Origin: Halomonas piscis
Lineage (GTDB): Bacteria > Pseudomonadota > Gammaproteobacteria > Pseudomonadales > Halomonadaceae
Direction: 5' to 3'
Assembly (NCBI RefSeq): GCF_031886125.1
Contig: NZ_CP119391.1
Span: 1,302,001-1,366,000 of the forward strand
DNA: 64,000 bases
Shown: one piece after another, positions 46,742-64,000 of the stretch
Position numbering within the stretch: the first letter of the stretch is position 1
Layout: the number at the start of each line of letters is the position of its first letter
Notes under the pieces: generated by a model
What the model saw: only the letters and a program-made list of their open reading frames with translations
Database searches by the model: none
What the model was told of the DNA's origin: nothing
Position numbers and translations under genes: made by a program

Positions 46742-47107
46742 CTTGCGACCTCGTGGGAGTGAAGAGACGAGCGCGCTTTCAAACCGACCAGGCCATCAAG
46801 CCAGCGTCATGACAGCCGCCGAGGGAAGCCGTGTCCTTGAGCAGCGTTGGCAGGTTAATTGCTAGCAGGCTAACTTGTTGCGTAAGGCTGGCGTGTGCGA
46901 CTTGGTGTCGGTGCCGGCTGGCGTAGACCTAACGGTAAGGAGGCGCGCCGTCTGGCGTAGGCCGCAGGTAAAGCCAGTGCGTCTGTCCGGCAAAAGGGAG
47001 GGAAAACCGGCGCAAACGCAGCGGCTTTAACCGCGGAGGGCGCATTATTGAACAGGAAAAACGACGCTGAAAAGCGACGTTTTGCCACACCTTTGCACCA
47101 GGGAAGG

Positions 47108-47201: not shown

Positions 47202-47540
47202 TCAGGCAATGGGGGCGTAGCGAATGTCCGTCACCACGTAGTACTGCTCGCCGCCGGGCGCGGCCACGGTGACGTCGTCGTCCACGGCCTTGCCCAAAAG
47301 CGCTCGGGCCAGCGGGGCGTCCACGCTGATCCAGCGTTTTTGGGTATCGGTCTCGTCGTGACCGACAATGCGCAGGGAGAGGGTTTCGCCGTGCTCGTCC
47401 TCGAGCTCGACGAAGGCGCCGAAGAACACCTTGTCGGTGTCCGCCGGCAGACGATCGACCACCTGCAGCTCGTCCAGGCGCTTGGTCAGGTAGCGGATGC
47501 GTCCCAGTACCCGGCCGAGCTCTTTCTTGTTGTAGGTATA
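47202..47540 (-). pseudogene. greB: Host greB, 3' remnant cut by the island
   Basis: The final 112 residues of a transcript-cleavage factor GreB are recognisable: YTYNKKELGRVLGRIRYLTKRLDELQVV, then DKVFFGAFVELEDEHGE, RIVGHDE, ISVDAPLARALLGKAVDDDV and EQYYVV. The N-terminal coiled coil (ITREGY... to GDRSENAEY) is missing. Homology stops at the YTYNKK codons (47523-47540), and the DNA upstream becomes AT-rich. The remnant has host-like GC content and keeps its own terminator. The missing 5' part should lie beyond the other end of the island, outside this window. Confidence 0.88.
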
Positions 47541-47583
47541 AAAGAACCCCTTCCTTCGAATACTATTCCCAAGGAGTTTTTTA

Positions 47584-47612
47584 TTGACGACTGAAGGTTT
47601 TTGGTCTAGACA
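47584..47612 (+). promoter_or_regulatory. Possible promoter of gmtY
   Basis: TTGACG (47584-47589) and TAGACA (47607-47612) are 17 bp apart, 30 bp before the gmtY start. The -35 is good, the -10 weak. Confidence 0.35.
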
Positions 47613-47642
47613 TGAAAACAACCCCTAAAAAAGTACTATCTG

Positions 47643-48971
47643 ATGCCCTTCGCACATAAGGTCCAAGTCCGCTACGTGGATGTGGCTAGCGGTAATGTTT
47701 ACTTGTTGCCGGCTGTTTATACTGAAAGTGGAGTGATTGCATCCCACCTCAGATACTTGGCCTGGTTCAGTTACAAAAGTGAGTCTTGGAAAGAAAGGTC
47801 AGTCTTTTCACTTCGACTTTTGATTTCTTATATAAATTCGTTGAGTGGCGAGATTAGAGCTATTGACTTACTGAAATCATTCACCCGTTCTTTAGTAACA
47901 GGGACTATTGATTATGAAAGCTGTAACGACCCTATGGGGTTGTTCTGGCCCCCGCGTTCAACATTTGATGTGAACAATATCTTGTTTCATATAACACACT
48001 ACACGGATTATTTGGCCAGGCAGCCTGAATATGAGGCCGCTCGTATAAATCCATTTGTAAAAGCAACGGGTTATGAAGAAAGGTTAAACTGGTGCGCATA
48101 CTATAATAGAAATGCCAATGTTTTTCTCAATCACTTAAAGAAAAGAGCGGACGCCTATTTGGAAGTTGGGCGAACGAGAGCCGTGGCAGGGTATCGCGAT
48201 CCTAAAATAGATAACGATAGGGTGGTTAAATTTCCTGATGACATGGTGGATGTTCTTTTGCAGGAAGGGTTTAGCAACTCTGTGGGAGTGAACTACAAAT
48301 ATCAACTAATGACCATGTTGATGAACTATGGGGGGTTGAGGAAGAGTGAGTTATTTCACCTTTACGTTTCAGATATCACTGTGCACCCTGAGCGAAGGGA
48401 CGAGGCACTGGTTAGGGTGTATCACCCAGAGTATGGGAAGTCACCACTGCCGGATTATAAAAATAGAAGAGAATATCTTCTTGCAGAGACGCAATATAAG
48501 CCAAGAAATTCTTACCCGCTAAGCGAGCGGCTTCATGCAGGGTGGAAAGGTGCTCTTCTTACAAGCAGGGCTGGTTTTTTTGAAGTGATTTTTAATCCAC
48601 CTAGCATGGCGAAAACCTTTTTAGCAGTTTGGGTGAAGTATTTAAAATACCAAAGAGTGGAGCCTGCTGCCAGCTTCCACCCATTTGCATTTACTAAAAA
48701 GAATGGCGGGCCTGAAACCTTAAAAAACTTCCAGCGCGCTCACAAGAGAGCCGTAGAAAAAATTGGCTTGGTATGTAAAAAAGAGTTCGGCACGACCGAG
48801 CATGGACACAGGCATGCATATGGTTATAGAGCTAGAAAATTTGGTTTGAGTCGGGTTGAAATACAAAAATCCATGCATCATAGAAGTCCTGATTCTTGTC
48901 TGGTTTATATTAAGCCAACCAATGAAGATATAAGGGAAATAATGCGGGGTGTTGCTGATGAAGATGCGTAA
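47643..48971 (+). CDS. gmtY: Gamma-mobile-trio recombinase GmtY (tyrosine recombinase)
   Basis: A 442-residue protein with tyrosine-recombinase features in the C-terminal half: Arg I in NYGGLRKSELFHLYVSDI (near residue 231), the His-x-x-Arg box in TTEHGHRHAYGYRARKFGLS, a later SMHHRSPDSCLVYI with His/Arg and the candidate nucleophilic Tyr near residue 424. It is the first of three overlapping genes in the order and sizes of the gamma-mobile-trio (GMT) module. AT-rich codon use contrasts sharply with the cyo genes. It starts about 100 bp from the broken host greB and reads away from it. The name rests on remembered family features, not a search. Confidence 0.82.
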   Translation: MPFAHKVQVRYVDVASGNVYLLPAVYTESGVIASHLRYLAWFSYKSESWKERSVFSLRLLISYINSLSGEIRAIDLLKSFTRSLVTGTIDYESCNDPMGLFWPPRSTFDVNNILFHITHYTDYLARQPEYEAARINPFVKATGYEERLNWCAYYNRNANVFLNHLKKRADAYLEVGRTRAVAGYRDPKIDNDRVVKFPDDMVDVLLQEGFSNSVGVNYKYQLMTMLMNYGGLRKSELFHLYVSDITVHPERRDEALVRVYHPEYGKSPLPDYKNRREYLLAETQYKPRNSYPLSERLHAGWKGALLTSRAGFFEVIFNPPSMAKTFLAVWVKYLKYQRVEPAASFHPFAFTKKNGGPETLKNFQRAHKRAVEKIGLVCKKEFGTTEHGHRHAYGYRARKFGLSRVEIQKSMHHRSPDSCLVYIKPTNEDIREIMRGVADEDA

Positions 48972-51714
48972 GCTTAAGATGCTTAATGTGGATGAGGATG
49001 TTCTTAAGCTACCTAAAGCGAATTTTTCTCTGCACGAAATGAAGCTTCTTTGCAAGAAGCATGGGATTAGCAACTCTTCTGAGTACAAGAAGCGATATAA
49101 GGAAGTCCCGGGATTGGTTGCTCATCCGGAGAGGATGTTTCCGGATGAGTGGGTTAGCTACAATGATTTTTTTGACATCCCAGAATTCTATACCTACGAA
49201 GAAGTTGTTTATAAGATTAAAGGGAAGGGGATAAGGTCTCAGTCAGAGTATAAGAAGTATGTCAAAGACCTCGGCGACCCCAGATTTCCATTTGACCCAC
49301 AAGGCGCGTATGCAGAAAGCTGGAAAAACTGGTACAAGTTCTTGGGGAAAGAAGAACCATTCAATGTAGAGTTTATCCTGCCTGAATTTAAGCAGTGGCG
49401 CGTGAAGATAGATGAGTTTATGAGGCAGGCGCTGGGGGGAAGCTCGAAAAAATCCTATCTATGTAGGTTCGTGAGAGTTTATATTGAGAGGCATGATGGA
49501 AGTAAAAGTCCTCAGGAGTTTCTAACAAAGCAAAAAGTCAATATAAAACCATTTAGAGATGAGCTGGAAAATTTCTCAACAGACAATATGAGAAGAAATG
49601 TCATACTGTCAGTGAATGAATTTTTTGATTATATCATCGGGTCTGATTTGACTGTGGAGGATGAGGAGACTGGAGAAGTATTCAGGCTGATGGATGCCCG
49701 AAATCCATTTGAGTTTATGTTGACCGACTCGTATGTGTCTTCGCCTGGAAGAAGCGAGTCAACCAAACCTTGTCTTCAGTATCACTTTGTCAGGAAGGCC
49801 CAGTCATGGATTATTCCAGATTCAGCTAGAAGTTTTCGTGACCTTACACATCTTCATGAGTTCGATTCTGACTGGGTGAAAGTAGAAAGACATATTATTG
49901 ACAAAGATGACCCAGACTGCGTTTACAAGAAAGCAGGGCCTTTCTGGTATCTATGGGTTCCGACAGACTGGATGCACACCTTTGCTTTGACAAAGGTTCC
50001 TCTTCGAGGAAGGCAGATCGCTTATAATGATTCGGGTGAAGCTGACGAATATATACCTGTAATTAAGGATGCTGGAGGAGTGGCGTGGGTAAAGAATCAT
50101 GCCGAAATGGCAGGGATGACTAAGTCGCAGTCTTTTATTAAGCGCTATCCCGATGACCAGATTGGGATGTTTGTTACAACTAATAAGACATCGTCCAATA
50201 ATGGCGGTTACTCCATACCATGGATGCCGGAAGATCTTGCATACTGGTTGATTAAGTTGAGAGAGTGGCAGGCTAAATATAATCCTGTCGATTTTCCTAC
50301 CAGCTGGTCGCGGTGCAAGAGAACCAACTTAAATGAAATTCAGTTGAAGTCAAAAGGTGTTAACTGTTTTTTATTTAGGGCTTTTGAAGATGTTGAGCCA
50401 AAAAATGTCGGCACGGCTTTGACGGGCAGGTTGGCAGCTGCCATTTATCATATACAACCATCGCATCTTAGGCTTTCAGAGCTGAGTGGGCTGCCTAATA
50501 ATATATCTTGTTATAAGTCTCCATACACCCCTCATTCCATGCGGGTGAGCTTGATTACAGCTTATGTTATGGAAATGGGGATGCCGGTTGAAGTTGTCAT
50601 GAAGGTCGTGGGGCACTCCTCGATCGTCATGTCGATATATTATTGCAAAATATCCCATGGGGAAATAAGGCGGCGATTGGAGGAAGGCGAGAAGATTGCG
50701 CTTCAAGCCGAGGTGGAAGCAATACAAAAAACAATTGAGTCCAATAAAATTGAGTCGGTAAAGAATCAGTTAGTTTCTAATAATGAAGACCTTCTGCTGT
50801 CGCTAACCAATAGTGTGCCTGCAGGAAATTTTGTATTCAGAGACTATGGTATTTGTCCATTTGCCGCCTCACGCTGCGATGATGGAGGAGATCAGGTCGG
50901 CGCGACAAGAGTACGGGCTCCGGTTCCCATGGGGTATTTGGGAATGCAGAACTGTCTTAGGTGCAGGCATTTCATCACAGGACCGGTTTTTCTGGGTGGC
51001 TTAATGTCGGTTGGGAACGAGATTTTGTTCGTTTCGAATAAGCAGTCTGAAAAATGTATGCGGCTCCAAGAAGAAATCTCCACAATCACAGCAAGGTTGG
51101 AGAAGATAGATCGAGATGAGTATATTGCAAATGCAAAGGGCATGAATTTTGATCAGGCTGAGAGAGTTTCGCTTGAGGCAGAACAAAGAAAGCTGGAGTC
51201 AGAGTATGAGAGTGCAGCAAAGAAAATGGACATGTTCCTGTGCGATTTGCAGTCCTGCTATAAGCTAATCAGGATGTGCGTGTCAGCTGTCAATGGTGTC
51301 TCTTCTGATGCAGAGGATGGTATTTCGCTGATTAAGATGCCCGATTCCGAAATGGAGATAGAAATGGAGGAGGTCTCTTACTTTCAGCAACTGCATGAGA
51401 TTTGCGAGAATGCAACAATCTACCATTCGGCTGATGCAGCCGTTGCAATAGCTCCGAGGTCTCAATTGTTGGACCGAATGTCGGTTTTTAATGAGTTGCA
51501 GCCGAGCCTTTTTATGTTGACGGATGAGCAGCAGCTTAAAGTTGGTAACCAGGTAGTCGGTTTTTTGAGGTCACGGCTGAAAACCTGGGAAAGAGTTGGC
51601 CAGGTCGTTGACTGTTCAGTGAGGCTAGACGAGTTGATGGAGGAGGAGAGAATTGATAGGTCGGAGCTTTCTCTGATTCTAAAGCCTCAGCTATTAAATG
51701 AGACGGGCTGCTAA
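48958..51714 (+). CDS. gmtZ: Gamma-mobile-trio integrase GmtZ
   Basis: A ~918-residue protein. The N-terminal part has repeated AVP-like helical segments with YEEVVYKIKGKGIRSQSEYKKY. A tyrosine-recombinase-like core follows, with candidate catalytic TPHSMRVSLITAYVMEMG (His-x-x-Arg) and VVGHSSIVMSIYYCK (Gly-His...Tyr) near residues 520-565. The last third has a cysteine cluster (GICPFAASRC, NCLRCRHF), likely a zinc site, and a coiled coil (EEISTITARLEKIDRDEY). The ATG at 48958 is preferred over an upstream GTG because GGGG is spaced before it; it overlaps the end of gmtY. Second gene of the trio. Confidence 0.8.
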   Translation: MKMRKLKMLNVDEDVLKLPKANFSLHEMKLLCKKHGISNSSEYKKRYKEVPGLVAHPERMFPDEWVSYNDFFDIPEFYTYEEVVYKIKGKGIRSQSEYKKYVKDLGDPRFPFDPQGAYAESWKNWYKFLGKEEPFNVEFILPEFKQWRVKIDEFMRQALGGSSKKSYLCRFVRVYIERHDGSKSPQEFLTKQKVNIKPFRDELENFSTDNMRRNVILSVNEFFDYIIGSDLTVEDEETGEVFRLMDARNPFEFMLTDSYVSSPGRSESTKPCLQYHFVRKAQSWIIPDSARSFRDLTHLHEFDSDWVKVERHIIDKDDPDCVYKKAGPFWYLWVPTDWMHTFALTKVPLRGRQIAYNDSGEADEYIPVIKDAGGVAWVKNHAEMAGMTKSQSFIKRYPDDQIGMFVTTNKTSSNNGGYSIPWMPEDLAYWLIKLREWQAKYNPVDFPTSWSRCKRTNLNEIQLKSKGVNCFLFRAFEDVEPKNVGTALTGRLAAAIYHIQPSHLRLSELSGLPNNISCYKSPYTPHSMRVSLITAYVMEMGMPVEVVMKVVGHSSIVMSIYYCKISHGEIRRRLEEGEKIALQAEVEAIQKTIESNKIESVKNQLVSNNEDLLLSLTNSVPAGNFVFRDYGICPFAASRCDDGGDQVGATRVRAPVPMGYLGMQNCLRCRHFITGPVFLGGLMSVGNEILFVSNKQSEKCMRLQEEISTITARLEKIDRDEYIANAKGMNFDQAERVSLEAEQRKLESEYESAAKKMDMFLCDLQSCYKLIRMCVSAVNGVSSDAEDGISLIKMPDSEMEIEMEEVSYFQQLHEICENATIYHSADAAVAIAPRSQLLDRMSVFNELQPSLFMLTDEQQLKVGNQVVGFLRSRLKTWERVGQVVDCSVRLDELMEEERIDRSELSLILKPQLLNETGC

Positions 51715-51715
51715 T

Positions 51716-52318
51716 ATGAAAAATGAAGATCTTTTGTTGAAGCTAAAAGAAGACGCTACGCCTAGAACCAAGAAGACGCTTGATGCAATATATGAAGTGT
51801 GTAGTGAGCAGATGGAGAGAGGTGTTAGTGATTTCTCTATAGTAACTATATCTAGGCTGGGCGCCAAGCGAGGAGTTCCGAAGCCACAAAGTATTAGGAA
51901 CAAGTCTGGAGAAAAATACCGTGCCCTCATAGAATCCTTTTCTGATATGGCCGGCGGCAATGTTAAGCGTCCCTCGCCAAGTGCTGATGACTGGGTAGAG
52001 GAGATTGCGAGTGCTAAACATAAGCTTCTTGTTAGATCGCTTCTTTCCGATCTCAAGAATGCTAAAAACAAGCTCAATGAAATTATTCCTCCGGGTAGTA
52101 GAATAGACGTATACGATCATAGGTCACAGCAAGCGGGCGAGGAAGAGAAGCTCTCCCAGCAGGAGAGAAGAGCGCTGGAATATCTGATATCCAATGAGTT
52201 TGTTGGTAAGTGGAATTTTCGCGCTACTGAGTTTGGTGAGGTTGTGGATGAGGGTGGTCAGGTGGTGTTCAAAGCTGCTACAATCGATGCTATTAAAAAG
52301 GCTCTAAATAACTTGTAG
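51716..52318 (+). CDS. gmtX: Gamma-mobile-trio protein GmtX
   Basis: A 200-residue protein, third of the trio, starting 1 bp after the gmtZ stop. The N-terminus DATPRTKKTLDAIYEVCSEQMERGVSDFSIVTISRLGAKRGVPKPQSIRN looks like a helix-turn-helix region, also seen in recombinase accessory proteins. The rest is charged and helical, with a wHTH-like end GKWNFRATEFGEVVDEGG. The biochemical role is unknown; size, position and start sequence match GmtX by recall. Confidence 0.78.
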   Translation: MKNEDLLLKLKEDATPRTKKTLDAIYEVCSEQMERGVSDFSIVTISRLGAKRGVPKPQSIRNKSGEKYRALIESFSDMAGGNVKRPSPSADDWVEEIASAKHKLLVRSLLSDLKNAKNKLNEIIPPGSRIDVYDHRSQQAGEEEKLSQQERRALEYLISNEFVGKWNFRATEFGEVVDEGGQVVFKAATIDAIKKALNNL

Positions 52319-52325
52319 GTCAGCT

Positions 52326-52799
52326 ATGAAGAATCCACTTGTAACAAGAGAGGGCTATGAAAGCCTGAAAGAAGAGCTTGACCATCTTTGGAGGGTGGAG
52401 AGGAGAGAGGTTACAGCTAAGGTGACATGGGCGGCCGGTCTAGGCGATAGGTCGGAGAATGCAGATTATCAGTATAACAAGAAGCGACTTAGAGAAATTG
52501 ATAGGCGGGTCAGGTATCTACGGAAAAGACTGGATGAGCTTAAGGTGGTTGATTATCATCCGGATCAAGCGGGTAAGATTTATTTTGGCGCCCACGTGGT
52601 GCTTGTTGATGACGATGGCAGGGAGATGAAGTTTCGGATTGTAGGTGTTGACGAGATTTATGGAAAACAGGGGTATGTTTCAATTAATTCGCCTGCGGCT
52701 AGAGCCTGTTTAGGTAAAGAAATCGATGATGAAGTGGAGATCGTAACTCCGGATGGGCGGAAGCTATGGTATGTCGAAAGCTTTTCTTATAACAGATGA
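52326..52799 (+). CDS. greB: Foreign, complete GreB transcript-cleavage factor carried on the island
   Basis: GreB rescues backtracked RNA polymerase by stimulating transcript cleavage. This 157-residue copy is complete: MKNPLVTREGYESLKEELDHLWRVERREV, then the acidic tip GDRSENADYQYNKKRLREIDRRVRYL (catalytic Asp/Glu), and the C-terminal FRIVGVDEIYGKQGYVSINSPAARACLGKEIDDEVEI. It is closer in flavour to the enterobacterial type than to the host remnant at 47202-47540, and it is AT-rich like the GMT genes. It starts 7 bp after gmtX. It could replace the greB broken by the island. Confidence 0.93.
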   Translation: MKNPLVTREGYESLKEELDHLWRVERREVTAKVTWAAGLGDRSENADYQYNKKRLREIDRRVRYLRKRLDELKVVDYHPDQAGKIYFGAHVVLVDDDGREMKFRIVGVDEIYGKQGYVSINSPAARACLGKEIDDEVEIVTPDGRKLWYVESFSYNR

Positions 52800-52829
52800 T
52801 CCTTTTAAGGCTTTTATCTGCGAGTCCTT

Positions 52830-53447
52830 GTGAATACTGACACCTATGACTTCCGCTACGACTCCGACCTCATCGGTGGCTCGTTGATGGTCCGCGAGAG
52901 CCGCATCGTGGCGGAGCTGCTGCTGGCCGGCGTCGATGACGCAGCCTGGAAGGCGGCCATTCTCGACGAGAATCGTCTCCAGAAGGCGCGGCCGGCCACG
53001 GCCAAGCGCATGGCCCAGGCGATCCGCAAGCGGCTTGTGCGGCTGCCTGCGCCGTTCTGGGAGGCGTTGTGTGAGGGGGATGACCAGCTGGCCACCCAGG
53101 TGGCATTCTGCGCGGCGCTGGCCCGCAACCTGCTCCTGGTGGAATTTCTGGAAACGGTGGTGGCCGATGCCGTTGTGACCCAGGCCGAGCGCCTTGAGCC
53201 CTACCAGTGGGATGATTTTCTTGCCGACCGTGCCTATCGTGATTCCGCCATTAGTGGGTGGACGGCATCCTCTAGACGAAAGATGGGGCAGGTGGCCTTT
53301 CGCATGCTTTGCGAAGTAGACTTAATGACTGACAGTCGTAAGCGAACGTTACGACCGCTGATGCTGCGGCCCGAGGTGGTGGAATTGCTGGAGCGCCACC
53401 ACCTGATTCGGCTGCTGGACTGCCTGATGCTCCTGGGGTCGCGTTGA
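52830..53447 (+). CDS. brxA: BREX protein BrxA (DUF1819)
   Basis: BrxA is a small DNA-binding protein of type I BREX phage-defence systems. The 205 residues show the DUF1819 pattern YDFRYDSDLIGGSLMVRESRIVAELLLAG, FWEALCEGDDQLATQVAFCAALARNLLLVEFL and WTASSRRKMGQVAFRMLCEVDLMTDS. The GTG start is used. It opens a GC-rich gene block after the AT-rich GMT/greB part. brxB follows after a 146 bp gap. Confidence 0.9.
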   Translation: MNTDTYDFRYDSDLIGGSLMVRESRIVAELLLAGVDDAAWKAAILDENRLQKARPATAKRMAQAIRKRLVRLPAPFWEALCEGDDQLATQVAFCAALARNLLLVEFLETVVADAVVTQAERLEPYQWDDFLADRAYRDSAISGWTASSRRKMGQVAFRMLCEVDLMTDSRKRTLRPLMLRPEVVELLERHHLIRLLDCLMLLGSR

Positions 53448-53593
53448 ACGCCATGGCTCCGGGCTGGCGGTAGCGTGCCTGTATGTCAGGGCTGTCGGCT
53501 GGCGATGCGGCAAGCTCTCGGGCAGCGTCTCGCAGCACGCCATAAAAAGAATGAGATGATGATAAGGAACGCAGACGCAGGGATGGGAACCAC

Positions 53594-54217
53594 ATGTCAC
53601 ACGCCGACACTCCCCTGGCTCACCGCCAGGCGGTCCGCCAGGACGATCCTCAGCTAAAGGATCGCCTCAACCAGATCGCCGATAAGATCACAAGCCCGGC
53701 CTTCCTTTCCGGCCAGGGCCTGGGCAACGAGATCGGCTTCTGGATCTTCGACTATCCCCCCGAGCACGAACTGCAGGTTCGCGAGTACCTCACCTTCCTG
53801 GAAGGGGTACTGTCCCGTCAGCACAGCGAGCTGACGGTTGACCACGTCAACCTGCTGCGCGTGCTGCGCGACTATCTCCATGAGCGTGGCTTCCTCGACA
53901 AGGCCATTGCCATGCAGCAGACCAAGGGCGATGCGGCGCTGCTCAAGGCGCTGCGCGGCCCGCTGCACATGGACAAGTTCGCCCCCTTCCTGATCCGACA
54001 CGCGCTGTCGGACGACCCCGATATCATTCTGCTGTCAGGCGTGGGTAGCGTCTGGCCGGTGATGCGTGCCCACAGTTTGCTCAATGCGCTGCACGGCAGG
54101 CTCGGCCACAAGCCGCTGGTGCTCTTCTATCCCGGCCGCTACGACGGCCAGAGCCTGACCCTCTTCGATCAGATCGCCAGTAACCACTACTACCGGGCGT
54201 TTTCTCTCGTGCCGTGA
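53594..54217 (+). CDS. brxB: BREX protein BrxB (DUF1788)
   Basis: The 207-residue BrxB family protein (DUF1788) is required in type I BREX; its activity is not well defined. Typical segments are GNEIGFWIFDYPPEHELQVREYL, VDHVNLLRVLRDYLHERGFLD, DPDIILLSGVGSVWPVMRAHSLLNAL, and LVLFYPGRYDGQSLTLFD near the end. Placement between brxA and brxC is the usual order. The 144 bp before brxC holds no supported gene. Confidence 0.92.
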   Translation: MSHADTPLAHRQAVRQDDPQLKDRLNQIADKITSPAFLSGQGLGNEIGFWIFDYPPEHELQVREYLTFLEGVLSRQHSELTVDHVNLLRVLRDYLHERGFLDKAIAMQQTKGDAALLKALRGPLHMDKFAPFLIRHALSDDPDIILLSGVGSVWPVMRAHSLLNALHGRLGHKPLVLFYPGRYDGQSLTLFDQIASNHYYRAFSLVP

Positions 54218-54361
54218 CGCATGGGCGCCCGGCTCAGTCAGTCCCCAGGGAACTCTCGATCTGAAGGCCAGCCGGCAGCCGTGCTGCCCTGGCACCCGCT
54301 TTGTTGACCGCCTTGCCCCACCACGGGAGCGAGGCGTTGCCCGTTAAGGAATCGATCGGAC

Positions 54362-57300
54362 ATGCGTATCCAGGACCTCTTCCAGAAACCTTTGAACCGC
54401 CCCATCAACGGTGTGGTGAAGGCCGACCAGAAGGACCGCGAGACGGTTTACCAGGAGCTCGACGAGTACGTGGTGACCAACGAGCTGGAGAAGCACTTCC
54501 GCGCCTTCTTCGAGTCCTACGCCACGCCGCTCAGTGACCCTTCCATCGCCAACCGGGTCGGGGTGTGGATCTCGGGCTTCTTCGGCTCGGGTAAGTCGCA
54601 CTTCCTCAAGGCGCTGTCGTACCTGCTGGCCAACATCGAGGCCGAAGACGAGGCCGGCAACCACCGCCGCGCCGCCGAGTTCTTCGACGAGCACAAGCTC
54701 CATGACCCGATGATCCGCGCCGACGTCACCAAGGCGGTACAGCAGCCGGCCGATGTCATCCTGTTCAACATCGACAGCAAGGCGAGCTCCAACGACGGCG
54801 GCAACCCGATCCTCAACGTCTTCCTGCGGGTGTTCAACGAGTACCAGGGCTTCAGTGGCGATCACCCGCATATCGCTCACATGGAGCGCCACCTGGCCCA
54901 GCGCGGCGTGCTGGAACGCTTCAAGGCGGCCTTCCAGGAGGCCAGCGGTATGGTCTGGGAAGAGGAGCGCGACGGCTTCCAGTTCTATCAGGACGACATC
55001 GAGCAGGCGATCAGCCAGGCACTGGATCTCTCCCCGGAGGCGGCCCACAAGTGGTTCGAGGATTCCGAGGAGACCTTCAGCGTCTCGGTGGAGAACTTCT
55101 GCCGCTGGGTGAAGGAGTACCTGGACGCGAAATCCCCGACTCAGCGCATCGTCTTCATGGTGGATGAGGTGGGTCAGTTCATCGGCAGCAACACCCGCCT
55201 GATGCTGACCCTGCAGACGCTGACCGAGAACCTCGGCACCATCTGCGGCGGTCGCGCCTGGATCGTGGTCACCTCCCAGGCTGACATGGACGCCGTGCTC
55301 GGCGAGATGACCGCCGCCAAGGCCAACGACTTCTCCAAGATCGCCGGGCGCTTCAAGACCCGTCTGTCGCTGTCGAGCTCAAACTCCGACGAGGTGATCC
55401 GCAAGCGCCTGCTGGCCAAGACCCCCGAGGCCAGCGGTGAACTCGCCCAGGTGTTCGAGGCCAAGGGCGCGGTGCTGCGCAATCAGCTCACCTTCGACCG
55501 CTCCGGCCCTACACTGAGGAACGTCGACGGCGTGGAGAGCTTCGTCGCCAACTACCCGTTCGTGCCGTACCACTTTCAGCTGGTCCAGAAGGTCTTCGAG
55601 GAGATCCGCAAGGTCGGCGCTACCGGGGCGCACCTGGCCTACGGCGAGCGCTCCATGCTCGACGCCTTCCAGATGGCCGCCAAGGCGGTAGGTGACCAGG
55701 AGATCGGCGCCCTGGTGCCGATGCACAGCTTCTACCGCGCCGTGGAGGGCTTCCTCGATACCGCGGTGAAGCGGACCATCGACCAGGCCAGCGAGAACGT
55801 CGCGCTGGATGACTTCGACGTCGAGATCCTGCGTACCCTGTTCATGATCCGCTACGTGGATCTGGTCAAGGGCACCCTCGACAACCTGGTGACGCTCTCC
55901 ATTACCCGCATCGACGACGACCGCCTGGCGATCCGCGAGCGCCTGGAAGGCACCCTGGCGCGGCTGGAGAAGGAGAGCCTGGTCACGCGCAACGGCGAGG
56001 AGTACCTGTTCCTTACCAACGAGGAGCGCGACATCACGCGCAAGATCAAGGCCACCGAGATCACCAGCAGCGACGAGAACAAGCTGCTGGCCGAGATGAT
56101 CTACAAGGACCGCCTGCGCGACCGCAACAAGTACCGCTACCCCCTCAACAAGACCGACTACACCATCGGCCGCTACCTGGATGGCCATACCATCGACGGC
56201 CGCTTCCAGAGCCAGCTGCGCGTCGAGGTGGTCTCGCCGCTGGATATCGATTACGTCCAGAGCTACTCGGTCCAGAACGGCGAAGCGGGCTGCATCCACC
56301 GCAGCAATGAGAACCAGGGCCAGGTGCTGATCCGTCTCGGCGACAACAAGGCCTTCTTCGACGACCTGCGCACCTACCTCAAGACCGAGAAGTACATCCG
56401 CTTGAATGCCGCCTCGGGCGACAGCAGCGTGGAGCGTATCCTTGCCGACCGCGGCCGTGAGAACCAGGAGCGTCGCAAGCACCTGCTGGTGCGCTTGGAG
56501 GACATGCTGCTGGAGGCCGACGTCTACGCCCTGGGCCAGAAACTCGACATCAACCGCAGCAATCTGAGCACCCGCCTCGACGACGCCTGTCAGTACCTGC
56601 TGGAGAACACCTACAGCAAGCTCGGTTACCTGCAAGTACTTACCCCCGACCCCATGCGCGAGCTTGTCGCGGTGATGACCGCCGACGACATCGGTCAGCA
56701 GGCCATCGAACTCGACGGTGAGGAAGGCAACCCCCAGGCGGTGCGCGAGGTGGAGCAGTACATCAGCCTGCACGGCGGCGAGCCGGTGCCCCTCAACCCG
56801 CTGCTGGAGCGCTTCAACAACCGCCCCTTCGGCTGGCCGGTGGAGGAGACCCTGCTGATCCTCGGACGGCTGTATGCCGCAGGAAGACTCACCTTCCACA
56901 CCGCCGGCCCGGCGCTGCCCGGCAAGGAGGCCTTCGAGCTGCTCAACAACAGCCGGCGGCGCAGCGAGGTAAGGTTGCAGAAGAAGCGCCAGACCGACGA
57001 CGCCGTGCTGCGTCAGGTGCGCAACCTCACCAAGGACCTGTTCACCAAGCTCGGGCCCTCCAGCGAGACCGAGCTCTACGCCTTCTACGTTGAGCAGTTC
57101 AGCGCCTGGAAGAAGGACCTGGAGGCCTACCGCAGCAAGACCGAGGTGGGCCGCTTCCCGGGGCGTGCCGCCATCGACAGCACCCTCAAGGAGGTTGAGC
57201 GCCTGCTGCGCATCGACGACAGCTTCGACTTCTTCAAGGCGGTGGCCGACCAGCAGGAGGATCTGCTCGATCTTGAAGAGGAGTATCGCGACCTCCACGA

Positions 57301-58081
57301 GTTCTTCACCAAGCAGCTCACCACCTGGAAGCAGCTCGACCAGGCCCTGACCCGCTTCCAGCCCAACCGCCCGGCGCTGGAGAAGGAGCCCGAGGCGAAG
57401 GCGGCGCTGGCCGAGCTGGACCGCATCTACGCCTCCGAGGCGCCCTACGGCATGCTGCAGAAGGTCTCCGGGTTGATCCAGACCGTCGATGAGACCAACA
57501 CCCAGCTGCTGGAGCAGAAGCGCGAGCATGCCATCGGCCGGATCGACCAGCGTATCGCCAACGTCAGCGCCGAGATCGTCAAGAGCGGCATCGGCACCCC
57601 GGAGCTCAGCAACCGCCTGCTGCGCCCCCTGCAGCTGCTCAAGCAGGACATCGAAAGCGCGGCCAGCATCGCCCAGATCTACCTGCTGCAGGGTGATACC
57701 GCCAATGACCGCGAGCAGGAGAGCCTCGACGAGCTCCACCGCGAGCAGGAAGCCGAGGCCGAACGCCAGCGCATCGCCCGCCAGAAGGCGGATAACGGTG
57801 GCAAGCCGGACCGCGATGCCACGCCAGACGGCGAGGGTGACTCAACCCAGGGCGGCGGCAGCGGTGATACCGGCACACCGCCCGATGAAGTGCGTGAACC
57901 CGCGCCCACCCGAGTCGCCGCACCCAAGCCGGTGGCCAACGTCAGCGTCAGCCAGGTGCTCAGCCGCACCCATGAAGGGGTCTACCTGGAGAGCCAGCAG
58001 GAGGTCGATGCCTTCCTCGACGCCCTCAAGCGCGAGCTCGACGACGCCATCCAGGCCAACAAGCGCATCCGCATCCGCTAA
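54362..58081 (+). CDS. brxC: BREX ATPase BrxC
   Basis: A large P-loop ATPase of 1239 residues in type I BREX. The N-terminal PLNRPINGVVKADQKD (usual conserved start) is followed by Walker A GFFGSGKSHFLKAL at 72-85 and Walker B RIVFMVDEVGQFIG near 261. Long helical and coiled-coil segments fill the C-terminal half. A charged linker (about residues 1130-1180, rich in Glu, Arg, Asp and Gly) precedes a conserved C-terminal domain ending RIRIR. Uniformly GC-rich. pglX follows after 96 bp. Confidence 0.94.
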   Translation: MRIQDLFQKPLNRPINGVVKADQKDRETVYQELDEYVVTNELEKHFRAFFESYATPLSDPSIANRVGVWISGFFGSGKSHFLKALSYLLANIEAEDEAGNHRRAAEFFDEHKLHDPMIRADVTKAVQQPADVILFNIDSKASSNDGGNPILNVFLRVFNEYQGFSGDHPHIAHMERHLAQRGVLERFKAAFQEASGMVWEEERDGFQFYQDDIEQAISQALDLSPEAAHKWFEDSEETFSVSVENFCRWVKEYLDAKSPTQRIVFMVDEVGQFIGSNTRLMLTLQTLTENLGTICGGRAWIVVTSQADMDAVLGEMTAAKANDFSKIAGRFKTRLSLSSSNSDEVIRKRLLAKTPEASGELAQVFEAKGAVLRNQLTFDRSGPTLRNVDGVESFVANYPFVPYHFQLVQKVFEEIRKVGATGAHLAYGERSMLDAFQMAAKAVGDQEIGALVPMHSFYRAVEGFLDTAVKRTIDQASENVALDDFDVEILRTLFMIRYVDLVKGTLDNLVTLSITRIDDDRLAIRERLEGTLARLEKESLVTRNGEEYLFLTNEERDITRKIKATEITSSDENKLLAEMIYKDRLRDRNKYRYPLNKTDYTIGRYLDGHTIDGRFQSQLRVEVVSPLDIDYVQSYSVQNGEAGCIHRSNENQGQVLIRLGDNKAFFDDLRTYLKTEKYIRLNAASGDSSVERILADRGRENQERRKHLLVRLEDMLLEADVYALGQKLDINRSNLSTRLDDACQYLLENTYSKLGYLQVLTPDPMRELVAVMTADDIGQQAIELDGEEGNPQAVREVEQYISLHGGEPVPLNPLLERFNNRPFGWPVEETLLILGRLYAAGRLTFHTAGPALPGKEAFELLNNSRRRSEVRLQKKRQTDDAVLRQVRNLTKDLFTKLGPSSETELYAFYVEQFSAWKKDLEAYRSKTEVGRFPGRAAIDSTLKEVERLLRIDDSFDFFKAVADQQEDLLDLEEEYRDLHEFFTKQLTTWKQLDQALTRFQPNRPALEKEPEAKAALAELDRIYASEAPYGMLQKVSGLIQTVDETNTQLLEQKREHAIGRIDQRIANVSAEIVKSGIGTPELSNRLLRPLQLLKQDIESAASIAQIYLLQGDTANDREQESLDELHREQEAEAERQRIARQKADNGGKPDRDATPDGEGDSTQGGGSGDTGTPPDEVREPAPTRVAAPKPVANVSVSQVLSRTHEGVYLESQQEVDAFLDALKRELDDAIQANKRIRIR

Positions 58082-58177
58082 ACCGACGCTATACCGAGCA
58101 GCCCCGCCTCTCAGAGCACGGGGCCGCCATGCCTCATTTGCCAACCCCTCGGCAACCCGCGCGATCAGGAATCCAGC

Positions 58178-61100
58178 ATGAACACAGGGAACATCAAGAA
58201 GTACGCCCCCAAGGCGCGTACCCGCTTAATCGAGACCATGACCCGCCAGGCCGCCCGCTACGGCATCAGCTCCGGTCACAAGGGCGAGGGCCATGTGGCG
58301 CCCGCCGAGGTGCGCGGCGATGTGATGCTGATCAGCGCCCTGGATGGCCAGACCCACAGCTTCCCCAAGGCCCTGCGCGGCCCCCGCGAGGCACTGGCCA
58401 AGTGGGTGACCCAGCTGGGCTTCGAGCAGGCCATGGAGCAGGCCGCCTACAGCTGGTTCAACCGCCTGTGTGCGATCCGCTTCATGGAGCTCAAGGGCTA
58501 TCTGGATCATGGTCGGCGGGTACTCTCCCACCCGGACCACGAAGGCGGCTTCCAGATCCTCGATGACTGCCTGGAGATCGACCTTCCCGGGCTGGATACC
58601 GCCCGCGTGCGCGAGCTCAAGCTCGACGGCACCCAGGACGAGGCGCTCTACCGCGAGCTGCTGCTGGCCCAGTGTCATGCCCTTCATGAGGCCATGCCGT
58701 TCCTGTTCGAACCGCTGGACGACGCCAGCGAGCTACTGCTGCCGGACAACCTGACCAAGACCGACTCGCTGATTCGCGAGCTGGTGGAAGCGATTCCCGA
58801 GGAGGACTGGCAGGACGTCGAGGTGATCGGCTGGCTCTACCAGTTCTACATCGCCGAGAAGAAGGACCAGGTGATCGGCAAGGTGGTGAAGAGCGAGGAC
58901 ATCCCCGCCGCCACCCAGCTGTTCACCCCCAACTGGATCGTCCAGTACCTGGTCCAGAACTCCGTAGGCCGCCAGTGGCTGCAGACCTACCCGGATTCTC
59001 CCCTCAAGGGCGAGATGCCGTACTACATCGAGCCCGCCGAGCAGGAGCCCGAGGTGCAGGCCCAGTTGGACGCCATCACCCCGGCCAGCATCGACCCCGA
59101 GACCATCAAGGTGCTCGACCCCGCTTGCGGCTCTGGCCATATCCTGGTCGAGGCCTACAACGTGCTGAAGGCCATCTACGAGGAGCGCGGCTACCGCTCC
59201 CGGGACATCCCCAAGCTGGTCCTGGAAAACAACCTGTTCGGTCTGGATATCGACGATCGCGCCGCCCAACTCGCCGGCTTCGCGCTGCTGATGAAGGCAC
59301 GGGAAGACGACCGCCGCATCTTCAGCCGGGGCGTTCGCCTCAACGTGATGGCCCTGCAGAGCACCCAGCACCTGGACGCTAGCACCCTGTGGCGTGACCT
59401 CAACCTCACCGGCGACTGGCACCAGGGCCAGTCCCAGAGCCTTTTCGAGGGCGAGCAGAAGGAGCTTTCCAGCCATGACAGCACCTACAAGGCCATCGTC
59501 GACCTGATCGAACGCTTCCAGGACGCCAAGACCTTCGGCTCGCTGATCGAAGTGCCAAACAGCTTTGAAGCTCCGCTCAAGACCCTGCTGGAGGTGCTCA
59601 CCGGGCTTGTGGATAGTGGCGACACCATGCAGAAGACCGCTGCCAGGCAGCTGATGACGGTTGTGCAGCAAGCTTGGGTATTGGCCCAGAGGTATGAGGC
59701 GGTGGTAGCGAATCCACCTTATTTAGGTGGCAGAGGGGTAACAGGCGTACCCAAAGTACTTGCTCCGTTAGCAAAGGGTGAGTATGCATTGGGTAAGATT
59801 GACGCGTACGCTATGTTTATCATATTGTCAAGAAATTTAGCCGTGGAACATGGTGTGTTTTCTTCTGTTGTTAAAGAAGAGATTCTTTACCTTCCAAGCT
59901 TATCAGAACTAAGAAGAAATCTTCTTGAAAAAAGTAAGGTTAGCAGCATTTGGCGAATTGGGAGTGGGGCATTTTCTGTTAGAGCCGCAGCATACGTGGC
60001 GAATAAAAATGTCACACCTGGTCGATTAAAGGTAGTGAGAAGCAACCGGGATGATGCATCTAAGTTAGGAGTAATGTCAGAATGGGATCAAAAAACGTTT
60101 GATTCACTTCCTTACTGCATAATCGACGATGACCTGCCCTCGAGTGTGGTGGAAATACTAAAGCTAAAGCCAAGGTTCGGAGATTTTACTACTGCAAAGC
60201 AAGGATTATCAACCACTGATAATGAGAGGTTTTTAAGATATTGGTGGGAAATTGGCGCTTCAGAATTAAAAAAGAGCAGGGAGAATCCCGAAAAAAAATG
60301 GCACCCCCACAACAAAGGTGGCAGCCCTAGGAAATGGTATGGGAACGTTATCCACACGATTGACTATAGAGACAACGGCTCTTTCTTGCTTGACTATGTC
60401 AGAGCAAAATATCCAAAAATATCTGACCCAGAGTTTATAATAAGAAATAGGTCTTCATATTTCAAAGAGTCTATTACATGGTCAAGGGTAAGAAGTAGCG
60501 GAAAGAGGGTCGGGTTCAGGCTTTCTCCAGAAGGACATGTTTTTGACACTGCCGCTATGTGCTTCAGTCATCCTGATATTGATAATTTATCAAATCTTGC
60601 ATTCTTGAATTCATCTTTTATTTCCGACGCCATCCAGTTCCTCAGTCCGGGGACTGACCTGAATTCGGAATTCGACCAATTGCCAGCCTGCCCCGAAGAC
60701 CTAAAATCCTCTCTATCACCTATCGCTTCACGTTCCATTAGTGCATCAAAGGAACTTTGGGATAGAGAAGAGATCTCAATGGAATTCTCAGTAAAGTCTA
60801 TGAGGTTAAATTGTGAGGGATTTAAATCTTGGGAGAGAAATTTTTTAGAAGTCGAGAAAGGGTTGATTTCAGAAATCAATATACTCCAAGAAAAAATAGA
60901 TAGGTTGGTCTGCAACTATATTTCTAGGGAGGCGGGTGAGAATCAGGAGTTTAAATCATACGAAGCTGAAAACATCAGTGCATCAGTAGCTCCAGCAAAT
61001 ATCCTAATGGCATTTTCCATTGGGTGTATGTTTGGAAGGTTTTCCCTGGATAAACCTGGCTTAATCCTTGCCAATCAAGGCGAAACCGTTCGCGACTACC

Positions 61101-61759
61101 TCGCCCAGATCCCTGAGCCCAGCTTTGCACCGGATAACAACGCCATTATCCCACTGACCGATCAAGAATGGTTCCCCGACGACGCGACCAACCGCTTCCG
61201 CGACTTCATCCGCACCGTCTGGGGCGAAGAGCACCTGCAGGAAAACCTCGATTTCGTGGCCGAAAGCCTCTGCCTGCATGCCATCAAGCCCAAGAAGGGT
61301 GAGGCGGCTCTGGACACCATCCGGCGCTACCTGAGCACCCAGTTCTACAAGGATCACCTGCGCACCTATAAGAAGCGCCCCATCTACTGGCTGTTCAGCT
61401 CGGGCAAGCAGAAAGCCTTCGAGTGCCTGGTCTACCTGCACCGCTACAACGAGAGCACGCTTGCCGAAATGCGCACCGACTATGTGATCCCGCTTACCGA
61501 GAAGCTCGCCGGCTACGTCGAGAAGCTGGAGCAGGACAAGGAAGCCAGCGCCTCCGCCGCCGAAGCCAAGCGCATCGAGAAGGAGCTGAGCAAGCTCTAC
61601 AAGCAGCAGGCCGAGCTTAATTCTTTCGACGAGAACCTTCGCCACTATGCAGATCAGCGGATCTCACTGGATCTAGATGATGGGGTGAAGGTGAACTACG
61701 GGAAATTTGGTGATCTACTCGCCAACGTAAAAGAAATCACAGGTAGCAAGCCGGAGTAG
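58178..61759 (+). CDS. pglX: BREX adenine-specific DNA methyltransferase PglX
   Basis: PglX methylates host DNA at a BREX-specific adenine, marking self, and is needed for defence. The 1193-residue N6-adenine methyltransferase has SAM motif I DPACGSGHILVEAYN (about 313-327) and the catalytic motif NPPY in VVANPPYLGG (about 510). The central region after NPPY (about 59.70-61.08 kb) is markedly AT-rich, while both flanks are GC-rich like brxABC, as if the target-recognition part was exchanged. The last ~140 bp are again AT-rich, joining the next gene. AGGA is placed before the ATG. All catalytic motifs look intact. Confidence 0.94.
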   Translation: MNTGNIKKYAPKARTRLIETMTRQAARYGISSGHKGEGHVAPAEVRGDVMLISALDGQTHSFPKALRGPREALAKWVTQLGFEQAMEQAAYSWFNRLCAIRFMELKGYLDHGRRVLSHPDHEGGFQILDDCLEIDLPGLDTARVRELKLDGTQDEALYRELLLAQCHALHEAMPFLFEPLDDASELLLPDNLTKTDSLIRELVEAIPEEDWQDVEVIGWLYQFYIAEKKDQVIGKVVKSEDIPAATQLFTPNWIVQYLVQNSVGRQWLQTYPDSPLKGEMPYYIEPAEQEPEVQAQLDAITPASIDPETIKVLDPACGSGHILVEAYNVLKAIYEERGYRSRDIPKLVLENNLFGLDIDDRAAQLAGFALLMKAREDDRRIFSRGVRLNVMALQSTQHLDASTLWRDLNLTGDWHQGQSQSLFEGEQKELSSHDSTYKAIVDLIERFQDAKTFGSLIEVPNSFEAPLKTLLEVLTGLVDSGDTMQKTAARQLMTVVQQAWVLAQRYEAVVANPPYLGGRGVTGVPKVLAPLAKGEYALGKIDAYAMFIILSRNLAVEHGVFSSVVKEEILYLPSLSELRRNLLEKSKVSSIWRIGSGAFSVRAAAYVANKNVTPGRLKVVRSNRDDASKLGVMSEWDQKTFDSLPYCIIDDDLPSSVVEILKLKPRFGDFTTAKQGLSTTDNERFLRYWWEIGASELKKSRENPEKKWHPHNKGGSPRKWYGNVIHTIDYRDNGSFLLDYVRAKYPKISDPEFIIRNRSSYFKESITWSRVRSSGKRVGFRLSPEGHVFDTAAMCFSHPDIDNLSNLAFLNSSFISDAIQFLSPGTDLNSEFDQLPACPEDLKSSLSPIASRSISASKELWDREEISMEFSVKSMRLNCEGFKSWERNFLEVEKGLISEINILQEKIDRLVCNYISREAGENQEFKSYEAENISASVAPANILMAFSIGCMFGRFSLDKPGLILANQGETVRDYLAQIPEPSFAPDNNAIIPLTDQEWFPDDATNRFRDFIRTVWGEEHLQENLDFVAESLCLHAIKPKKGEAALDTIRRYLSTQFYKDHLRTYKKRPIYWLFSSGKQKAFECLVYLHRYNESTLAEMRTDYVIPLTEKLAGYVEKLEQDKEASASAAEAKRIEKELSKLYKQQAELNSFDENLRHYADQRISLDLDDGVKVNYGKFGDLLANVKEITGSKPE

Positions 61760-61761
61760 TT

Positions 61762-63519
61762 ATGTATCAGGCAGGTGGCACTATCGCAGCACTAATGGAT
61801 CAAGTGAAGAACCATGGTCTGATTCTTCCGGCAATCCAGAGGGAATTTGTATGGAAGCCTGACCAGATCTGTAATTTGTTTGACAGCCTTCTTCAGGGTT
61901 ATCCTTTTGGGGTTTTTCTATTTTGGCGAATACAGCCTGAAAACCGAGAAAAATATCAGTTTTACGATTTTGTTAAGGATTTCCATCAGCGTGACAACCC
62001 TCATTGCCCACCATTAAAGGATCTTCCTGAACGTGAGCTTGTTGCCGTTCTTGATGGCCAACAACGGATAACCGCGCTAAATATCGGCCTGCAAGGTTCC
62101 TACAGTCAGAAAATTCACGGGAAATGGTGGTCGAGCTCAGATGCCTTTCCCATGAAACACCTTTATATAAACCTTCTTGGTCAGCCTGAGGAGGAAACTG
62201 GCAGCCAGTATCAGTTTGAATTTCTCACAAGTAAACAGGCTGCTGACAAGAATGGTGAGGAATGCTGGTTCAGGGTTGCGCGGATCCTCGAAGAGGACCG
62301 AGATGATCTAAACGACGATCTCAATGATGGATGGGAAGGCGATAGAGAGTCTTTAAAGGCCGCTCGGAGTGTGCTCAGGCACCTAATCACCACAATCTTT
62401 GACAAAGACAAAATTGCTTACTACGAAGAAAAAGATCAAGACCTTGAGCGGGTGCTTAATATATTCATTCGTATGAATAGTGGCGGAACCATTCTTTCAT
62501 ATTCGGACTTGCTTTTATCAATAGCTGTCGCTCAATGGGACAACCTAGATGCTCGAGAGGAGATCCACTCTCTAGTAGATGAGATGAATAAAATTGGAGA
62601 CGGCTTTTCTTACAGCAAGGATCTTGTTCTAAAAGCTGGATTGATGCTGTCAGATATAGGTAGCGTAGGGTTCAAGGTAGAGAATTTCAATAAATCCAAT
62701 ATGGCAATTCTTGAGCAGAATTGGTCGAATATCCGCAGTGCTCTTTTGCTTGCGACTGAGCTGTTGGCGACCTTCGGATTTAACTCCCAAAACCTTCGAG
62801 CAGATAGCTCAATCTTACCGATCGCTTATTATATTTATACGCGAAAGCCTGGTGAGGGTTACTTGTCTAGATCGGAGTTCGCAAAAGATCGTGAAGCCGT
62901 TCGACAATGGTTAATAAAATCACTTCTGAAAGCGTCAGGTATTTGGGGGAGTGGTCTCGATACACTTCTTACCAGCTTGCGGAGAGTACTAAAAGAAGAA
63001 GGGGAAGCAGGTTTTCCGGCGGATTCACTAGGCTCCGCTATGGCGTCCCGAGGGAAATCACTCCACTTTGTCGATGAAGAAGTCGATGAGCTTTCCGAAT
63101 TGGAGTATGGTGGAAAAAGAACCTTTGCTCTTCTTTTACTCCTGTTCCCGGGGTTTGATTTTTCTAGGCACTTTCATGTTGACCACATTTATCCCAAAGG
63201 GTTGTTTTCAACTAGCAAGCTAAGAAAGTCAGGGGTGCCGGAGGAAAAAATAGAGACCTTCAAAATATGGGCCAATCGATTACCTAATCTGCAATTGCTC
63301 GAAGGTACCATTAATAACGAGAAGCGACAGAAGATGCCGTCAGACTGGTATGATAAAGCATGGCCTGACCCTGAAGCACGTCAACGCCACCTACACTCCC
63401 AAGGAATAGATTTGCTCCCAGGCGATATCAAGGAATTTGAAGGTTTTTACACTCAGAGGAAGAAAATCTTCAAGGCAAGGATCGAACAGGTAGTCAATAG
63501 GAAGGAAGATGGACTTTAA
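61762..63519 (+). CDS. DUF262/HNH (GmrSD/BrxU-like) putative restriction protein embedded in BREX
   Basis: A 585-residue protein with an N-terminal DUF262 domain: PAIQREFVWKPDQICNLFDSLLQGYPFGVFLFW (residues 23-55), the DGQQRITAL motif (about 97-105) and a later IRMNSGGTILSYSDLLL. The C-terminal part has an HNH/DUF1524-like motif, HFHVDHIYPKG (about residue 473), with NRLPNLQLLEGTINNEKRQ. This is the layout of GmrSD/BrxU modification-dependent nucleases. It sits between pglX (2 bp gap) and pglZ (11 bp overlap) and is AT-rich, unlike most BREX genes. BrxU is a known precedent for such a gene embedded in a BREX locus, but equivalence here is inferred. Confidence 0.8.
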   Translation: MYQAGGTIAALMDQVKNHGLILPAIQREFVWKPDQICNLFDSLLQGYPFGVFLFWRIQPENREKYQFYDFVKDFHQRDNPHCPPLKDLPERELVAVLDGQQRITALNIGLQGSYSQKIHGKWWSSSDAFPMKHLYINLLGQPEEETGSQYQFEFLTSKQAADKNGEECWFRVARILEEDRDDLNDDLNDGWEGDRESLKAARSVLRHLITTIFDKDKIAYYEEKDQDLERVLNIFIRMNSGGTILSYSDLLLSIAVAQWDNLDAREEIHSLVDEMNKIGDGFSYSKDLVLKAGLMLSDIGSVGFKVENFNKSNMAILEQNWSNIRSALLLATELLATFGFNSQNLRADSSILPIAYYIYTRKPGEGYLSRSEFAKDREAVRQWLIKSLLKASGIWGSGLDTLLTSLRRVLKEEGEAGFPADSLGSAMASRGKSLHFVDEEVDELSELEYGGKRTFALLLLLFPGFDFSRHFHVDHIYPKGLFSTSKLRKSGVPEEKIETFKIWANRLPNLQLLEGTINNEKRQKMPSDWYDKAWPDPEARQRHLHSQGIDLLPGDIKEFEGFYTQRKKIFKARIEQVVNRKEDGL

Positions 63520-64000
63520 ACAGTTACACCAAGGCCTATCTAGCTCTTTCTTCGCTGACGGCCATCGCCTCGTTTTCTGGTACGACCCCCCGGTCCACTT
63601 TGTCGAAGCACTAGATGAACTCGCACTAGATGGTGTACAGGTTCTCAACATGGCCGGGCAGTCCACCTTCGGCGTGAAGCTGCGCCTGGAGCTAGAGGAG
63701 CCGGAGACGCCGACGCTGCTCTACTTCCCCTACGCCGAGCCAGCGCCGGAGGATGACTGGCTTTTGGATATCAAGCTCTACTCCGGGCGCTTCTACGCCG
63801 ATCAGCTGTCGATGATCTTCAACGAGCTGGGCCTTGCCCGGCATGTGCTGCGTGAGCACCTGGCCAAGCGCCAGGCGTTCCTGGGCAGTCGCAAGCGCAT
63901 TGAGGCGCTCAAGCGCCTGGTCACCCCGGAGATGGACGAAGACGGTCTGGACCTGGCCATGTGCGCCGCCGTGGTGGGGGCGCCGACCTCGGATATTGCG
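63509..64000 (+). CDS. pglZ: BREX alkaline-phosphatase-like protein PglZ, N-terminal part
   Basis: The first 164 codons of PglZ, the phosphatase-fold component of BREX. The start MDFKQLHQGLSSSFFADGHRLVFWYDP and the following VLNMAGQSTFGVKLRLELEEPE and LLYFPYAEPAPEDDWLLDIKLYSGRFYADQLSMIFNELGL match the type I PglZ N-terminus. The start overlaps the previous gene by 11 bp, so translation is coupled. Base composition shifts from AT-rich to GC-rich within the first ~150 bp. The gene runs off the window edge; brxL would be expected after it. Confidence 0.92.
   Translation, partial: MDFKQLHQGLSSSFFADGHRLVFWYDPPVHFVEALDELALDGVQVLNMAGQSTFGVKLRLELEEPETPTLLYFPYAEPAPEDDWLLDIKLYSGRFYADQLSMIFNELGLARHVLREHLAKRQAFLGSRKRIEALKRLVTPEMDEDGLDLAMCAAVVGAPTSDIA

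Follow-up and report, generated by a model that had tools for sequence, protein, structure and literature searches.

A GMT defence island inserted in greB of Halomonas piscis carries a complete greB that probably replaces the split host gene

Introduction

Gamma-mobile-trio (GMT) islands, reportedly described by Mahata et al. in 2024, carry the genes gmtY, gmtZ and gmtX in this order at one island end, together with defence or offence cargo. Here, we describe such an island in a 64,000-nucleotide stretch of Halomonas piscis DNA (the window; contig NZ_CP119391.1, genome positions 1302001-1366000 of a single-contig genome of 3.23 Mb), where it splits the conserved transcription gene greB and brings along a second, complete greB of its own. 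As GMT islands are presented in the papers that cite them (PMC12715929, PMC12259885 and PMC12039261), the locus likewise has GmtY-GmtZ-GmtX in order and a defence cargo, in this case BREX and AbiTii. No greB-sited GMT insertion with a greB cargo was found in the literature searched, a set that excluded the original 2024 GMT paper.

Three other systems bear comparison. Tn552-II of Staphylococcus aureus is outlined in PMC12486829 as tnpABC, then a target-gene-like gene (tgl), then cargo, with a 7-bp core and a circular form; according to its authors, movement is consistent with that of Tn554, and tgl may rescue the disrupted gene. Like Tn552-II as set out there, the GMT island runs from a recombinase trio through a target-gene homologue to cargo, a likeness in the described gene layout; unlike it, Tn552-II is a 9-kb transposon of S. 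aureus, carries bla genes and targets a plasmid coding sequence or a yolD-like gene. For strand-biased circularizing integrative elements (SE), the account in PMC10214605 is that the target's 6 bp are found at attL and the donor's left 6 bp at attR. SE and GMT islands have in common two tyrosine recombinases, imperfect terminal inverted repeats, a 6-bp fingerprint and occurrence on the chromosome and a plasmid of one strain, whereas the SE core given there comprises four genes (intA-tfp-intB-srap) and the GMT island has the three trio genes before greB, so that the locus lacks the SE gene set. The main text of PMC10214605 does not mention greB. The recA mobile element of Vibrio cholerae S24, described for that one strain in PMC4405046, is 32.8 kb long, has short inverted repeats and excises as a circle, and its diverged full-length RecA was shown there to work in E. 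coli. Going by that description, it resembles the GMT island in sitting in a housekeeping gene of which it also brings a full-length, diverged copy, and it differs in its recombinases and in its target, recA. The principle of target-gene replacement is already known from the recA island and Tn552-II, and the greB case in GMT islands is a variant of it: greB is split, a complete homologue lies inside the island, and the island is a GMT element that, by its sequence pattern, works like Tn554 and SE and adds to the known elements with a homologue of the gene they enter.

Anatomy of the island and its junctions with host greB

The island is 31,682 bp long, starting at 47541 in the window and ending at genome position 1381222 (window coordinate 79222); the window holds its left half, and the right end lies 15.2 kb past the window edge. 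An earlier note on the window, made without database searches, had placed at 47202-52799 a host greB cut at its YTYNKK codons (47540), a gmtY-gmtZ-gmtX trio recognized by gene order, sizes and recombinase motifs, and a full-length second greB. Every one of these elements is present, and the interval itself covers only the left part of the island. The trio consists of three overlapping AT-rich genes in Y-Z-X order, the GC fraction falling from 0.61 at 46001-47000 to 0.42-0.48 at 48001-53000, and all three proteins pass their NCBIfam models above the NCBI cut-offs (Table 1); with the defence cargo, this confirms the element as a GMT island. The complete greB likewise scores well above the cut-off of its own model.

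The 3' part of host greB encodes GreB from Tyr-Thr-Tyr-Asn-Lys-Lys onward to the C-terminal end. The missing 5' part, which had been predicted beforehand to lie at the far junction, was found directly after the island right end, at genome 1381196-1381363 (profile positions 2-57, running into a TAG). The order at this junction is the island end at genome 1381222, six foreign base pairs (TTCCTA) and then the host greB 5' part (...RSENAD). When the two flanks were joined in silico, a single open GreB frame resulted, which shares 79-83% identity with GreB from four congeners but 48% with the cargo GreB. The host genome has four greB-family places in all: the cargo greB, the 3' part, the 5' part and a greA-like gene.

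An unbroken greB should be present in relatives without this island, and one scoring above cut-off was found in all 18 same-genus genomes searched, one of which (G227) bears a distantly related GMT that is of a different type. Among 28 related genomes other than the host's own, 27 have a single greB above cut-off, G276 (75% completeness) being the exception with none; a second greB above cut-off was listed in none of the 28.

Recurrence of the greB split across GMT loci

A GmtY-alignment scan of genome contigs gave 55 loci; a GmtY identity threshold of 39% left 43 of them (L055-L096 and L108) and removed the other 12, which fell below it. Host greB is split at the same codons in 36 of the 43, and in 38 of 45 when the window and a further genome, G020, are included, which answers the earlier note's question about other GMT islands in greB. 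The other seven comprise three islands in an MscS-family channel gene (L089, L091 and L092), two sited outside greB and carrying greB (L064, Methylomonas LW13; L083, Stutzerimonas 95A6) and two that begin at contig starts (L055 and L094) and were left out of site counts. Copies from THAF12, IMG/VR and Pseudomonas plasmids stand outside the 45 loci; the scan of viral contigs gave one GMT locus. Hosts of greB-split islands include Acinetobacter, Marinobacter, Methylomonas, Pseudoalteromonas, Zobellella, Oceanisphaera, Halopseudomonas, Wohlfahrtiimonas, Hahella and Pseudomonas, and one insertion (L095) runs in the opposite orientation.

A complete extra greB is present in 38/38 genomes with a split greB. 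It lies inside the island, or, for L058, on another contig where it adjoins gmtX, and it starts within 100 bp of gmtX in 24/36 scan loci. In Pseudomonas, Stutzerimonas and Hahella, the cargo greB is often elsewhere in the island, and in four genomes (G312, G314, G318 and G320) it is beside the right end. The GC content of trio plus greB (positions 10001-15100) is below that of the host flank in all 29 loci listed.

Target core at the left end, probable donor core at the right

With junctions read in coding orientation, all 37 of 37 readable left ends carry Tyr-x codons (TAY NNN) that continue the reading frame of the host fragment. The 6 bp at the right end are foreign in 27/35 cases and begin with TAY in the remaining 8/35, which is above the expectation from base composition (P=1e-4). 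Both ends bear a related inverted repeat, roughly TTATAACCC-N8-CATACTAT; TAGTA occurs no more than 40 nt from the junction at 36/36 left ends, and TACT with ACC or CCC at all 35 counted right ends. Excluded from these counts were the right ends of L058 (contig end), L124/L061 (no terminus) and L095 (reversed), as well as the left end of L096; L137, the left end of the reversed L095, was counted as a left end, and L135 is a scar and was not counted as an end. As a sequence pattern, the target core is kept at the left and the donor core at the right, as in Tn554 and SE.

A circular form and copies outside greB

A circular form was found in a close relative, Halomonas sp. THAF12, whose GmtY is 98.6% identical to that of the window. 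The replicon pTHAF12_b (NZ_CP045401.1, 1-47894; L113) equals the island of pTHAF12_a (NZ_CP045400.1; L111/L114), 47,888 bp with 0 mismatches, plus GGTGTA. It was deposited as a plasmid of 47,894 bp, and no replication gene is among its 44 listed features, in a PLSDB table that can be incomplete. The pTHAF12_a copy has TTTCAT on its left and GGTGTA on its right, the latter being TACACC on the greB coding strand, a Tyr-Thr codon pair that the G020 insertion has as well. Because the published SE rule predicts TTTCAT in a circle made from the pTHAF12_a copy, a donor copy sited in a greB accounts better for the THAF12 circle, a putative donor that was not seen.

The right 6 bp could be read for four copies outside greB (Table 1), and all four are 6-mers seen at greB insertions. 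Such greB-type right 6-mers were therefore found at 4/4 copies outside greB versus 8/35 in greB (P=0.006 in a post hoc test). For the LW13, 95A6 and pAFM-PA19-3158 copies, the boundaries were placed according to the spacing and motifs of related copies. Because they show 10 differences in 7,700 bp, the P. aeruginosa and NY8896 plasmids were counted as one. On these two near-identical Pseudomonas megaplasmids, the trio and greB form a unit, and next to no cargo separates greB from the right end (L192 10494-11150, pAFM-PA19-3158); a left end was looked for in the P. aeruginosa plasmid copy and not found.

In Methylomonas sp. LW13, the island with its greB sits between genes, after what by eye is a GC-rich inverted repeat. 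The host greB of this strain (L135) is frameshifted by a 4-bp shortfall that, judged against relatives, is confined to the 6-bp core, and it looks like the scar of an island's departure. In G350, an LW13 relative with two greB genes, no trio was present in about 3 kb around each greB.

Conservation, selection and descent of the cargo greB

The Asp41/Glu44 motif, which we take to hold the catalytic acids of GreB, is kept in the cargo GreB of the window and in 41 of 42 cargo copies. Aligned with E. coli GreB (2p4v), the cargo GreB also matches residues 1-155 with no gap. The ratio of nonsynonymous to synonymous substitution rates (dN/dS) among cargo greB genes has a median of 0.045 and a maximum of 0.11 over 66 pairs, mostly from Acinetobacter and mutually dependent; these are the pairs with dS 0-1.5 out of 70 at 80-99.5% DNA identity, compared ungapped over 148 codons. 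Ratios this low indicate that the cargo greB is under purifying selection and, with the conserved residues, suggest that the cargo GreB is functional.

Within single genomes, cargo and host GreB have a median identity of 54% across the part compared, with values from 45 to 92% in 31 genomes, and the cargo label needs 8 changes on the tree (113 columns). The split gene is itself cargo-type in Acinetobacter sp. S54 (L068; 92% identical to its own cargo) and Acinetobacter rudis (L078; 82%), and a comparison of neighbouring genes in Acinetobacter found no origin for these cargo-type resident genes. The suggestion that the cargo greB shares the target core was borne out only in part, through these two genomes. 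The data do not cleanly show that cargo greB descended together with the trio, the Mantel values for trio and host being close.

GMT genomes with an unbroken greB

Ten gammaproteobacterial GMT genomes with an unbroken greB served as controls, three with the island sited in the MscS-family channel gene and seven of the host's own family (GmtY 28-38% identical; island sites not mapped); none has a second greB. The association between split greB and cargo greB gave a Fisher P=6e-8 with the four cargo-bearing copies outside greB as exceptions and P=1.5e-7 with L055 as a fifth, both tests being post hoc. Among 17 distant-GMT genomes (six of the seven own-family genomes and 11 more distant), none had two matches above the greB cut-off or a greB fragment with either of its ends at the core; matches scoring less than the cut-off were of GreA type or weak hits to the C-terminal domain. 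No greB annotation was present in the fetched stretches of two further plasmid GMT loci (GmtY 37-40% identical).

The three channel-gene islands form a Pseudomonas GMT sublineage at the same place in the gene, the family being named by Pfam in two of the three fragments. The L089, L091 and L092 genomes have one channel-gene match each, which led us to reject a general rule by which all GMT islands would bring along a copy of the gene they enter.

Interpretation and alternative explanations

We consider it highly probable that the GMT island has a fixed site in greB and that its cargo greB replaces the function lost by the split. In such a scheme, the two tyrosine recombinases and GmtX would insert the island between the Ser-Glu-Asn-Ala-Asp and Tyr-x-Tyr-Asn-Lys-Lys codons of greB, leaving two halves of which presumably neither works. 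The exchange would take place over a 6-bp core, the target's 6 bp staying at the left and the 6 bp of the circular form, derived from the donor's left flank, passing to the right end, in what is presumably the order of strand exchange. The diverged complete greB, fourth in the gmtY-gmtZ-gmtX-greB unit, would be expressed and would rescue the host by restoring transcript cleavage by backtracked RNA polymerase; given this replacement, landing in a conserved core gene may carry little cost. That the cargo greB is a replacement gene, as the earlier note had supposed, is strongly supported by association and selection, within what sequence comparison can indicate.

Several observations weigh against this reading. 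The cargo greB is not strictly tied to a broken host greB: the Stutzerimonas 95A6 island is elsewhere and carries greB, yet the host greB is unbroken, and Methyloprofundus L055, where the contig begins too late to include the site, has a cargo greB together with an unbroken host greB. The comparison loci without cargo greB are mostly distant GMT types, so that common descent explains part of the association. Over 31 loci, cargo greB distances correlate with those of the trio at a Mantel r of 0.71 and with those of the host at 0.67 (partial values 0.60 and 0.54). One cargo copy (L057) has Asp instead of Glu44, and the right end of L124 is without a recognizable terminus. Finally, greB is dispensable in E. 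coli, and the cost relieved by the cargo greB may for this reason be small.

The best-surviving alternative, which we nevertheless regard as unlikely, is that the cargo greB serves the element itself, for instance by aiding the transcription of its long AT-rich operon or its recombination, or as a spare target site, with host compensation as a side effect. The position of greB directly after the trio in 24/36 scan loci and in the window fits this, as do its presence in four copies outside greB and the fact that a cargo-type greB can itself be hit, as in Acinetobacter sp. S54 and A. rudis. Against it, the ten control genomes imply that GMT elements in general do not need a cargo greB, and in G312, G314, G318 and G320 the gene lies by the right end, apart from the trio. 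Still less probable is a passenger origin, in which an ancestral island in greB captured the neighbouring greB and has since carried it without function. Cargo greB does group by island lineage, and cargo distances correlate with host distances; this account is opposed by a cargo dN/dS of about 0.045, by the varying position of greB within islands and by 42 complete cargo copies of which none is stop-interrupted (a near-full-length match having been required for extraction). Independent decay of host greB beside an unrelated greB-bearing island, or an assembly artefact, found no support and is refuted by the host greB 5' part at the far junction, by exact 6-bp junctions at both ends and by an identical break in 38 genomes, leaving it a vanishingly small probability.

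Beyond replacement, a broader picture, on which we are evenly divided, would make greB the chromosomal home of this GMT lineage, with plasmids and other sites as vehicles. The right 6 bp would then record the previous address: greB-core 6-mers occur at 4/4 readable copies outside greB and non-greB 6-mers at 27/35 copies in greB. The carried greB would be the fee for a core-gene landing pad across gammaproteobacteria, and it could become the only working greB of the cell, since the host greB of LW13 is frameshifted within the 6-bp core.

Replacement would explain in mechanistic terms how GMT islands with defence genes are able to occupy a conserved transcription gene. Exact ends and a target are now given for a GMT lineage, and GMT islands are linked to the Tn554/SE mode of movement. 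With a 6-bp trace of an island's former site, shuttling of defence islands between chromosome and plasmid becomes testable from sequence alone. Annotators should be aware that excised islands account for some of the small "plasmids" in databases and that a seemingly redundant greB may be the sole functional copy.

Cargo and other features of the island

The cargo contains the complete BREX type 1 gene set, BrxA, BrxB, BrxC, PglX, PglZ and BrxL (Table 1), with an AbiTii gene after brxL. Positions beyond the window are given for L005, the stretch that continues past it.

Table 1. Coordinates of the island, its genes and its junctions, and right-hand 6-mers of copies outside greB
Feature	Position or replicon	Strand	Remarks
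Host greB, 3' part	47202..47540	-	TIGR01461, PF01272; from Tyr codon (profile position 47) to stop
6-bp crossover core kept from target	47535..47540	.	GGTATA; coding strand TATACC = Tyr-Thr codons
GMT island, in-window part	47541..64000	.	remainder outside window
Left terminal inverted repeat	47541..47566	.	AAAGAACC...ATACTAT; right end, read inward, AAAGAACCTCAAATGACATACTAT
gmtY, tyrosine recombinase	47643..48971	+	NF040693 499 bits (cut-off 340); PF00589
gmtZ, large tyrosine recombinase	48949..51714	+	NF047926 800 bits (cut-off 600); PF13009; longest-frame start
gmtX	51698..52318	+	NF040692 224 bits (cut-off 40); longest-frame start
Cargo greB, complete	52326..52799	+	TIGR01461 231 bits (cut-off 171); 7 bp past gmtX
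brxA, BREX cargo	52830..53447	+	
brxB, BREX cargo	53594..54217	+	
brxC, BREX cargo	54362..58081	+	
pglX, BREX methylase	58178..61759	+	PADLOC: type IIG enzyme model top, PglX second
GmrSD-like / HEC-05 gene	61762..63519	+	between pglX and pglZ of BREX cluster
pglZ start	63509..64000	+	runs past window (L005 509-3139)
brxL	L005 3983-6067		downstream of pglZ, beyond window
Right 6 bp outside greB	pTHAF12_a		TACACC
Right 6 bp outside greB	Methylomonas LW13		TACATC
Right 6 bp outside greB	Stutzerimonas 95A6		TACACC; same as core codons of strain's own unbroken greB
Right 6 bp outside greB	P. aeruginosa plasmid pAFM-PA19-3158		TATCAG; less sure, left end not found

Inside the island, on the minus strand at L005 10005-12079 (genome 1375005-1377079), lie an IS (insertion sequence)-type transposase frame and a truncated integrase-like frame, as judged from translation alone. 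The last gene before the island right end (L005 14834-16135) encodes a 433-amino acid protein without a Pfam match, and several Acinetobacter islands also have common gene families at their right ends.

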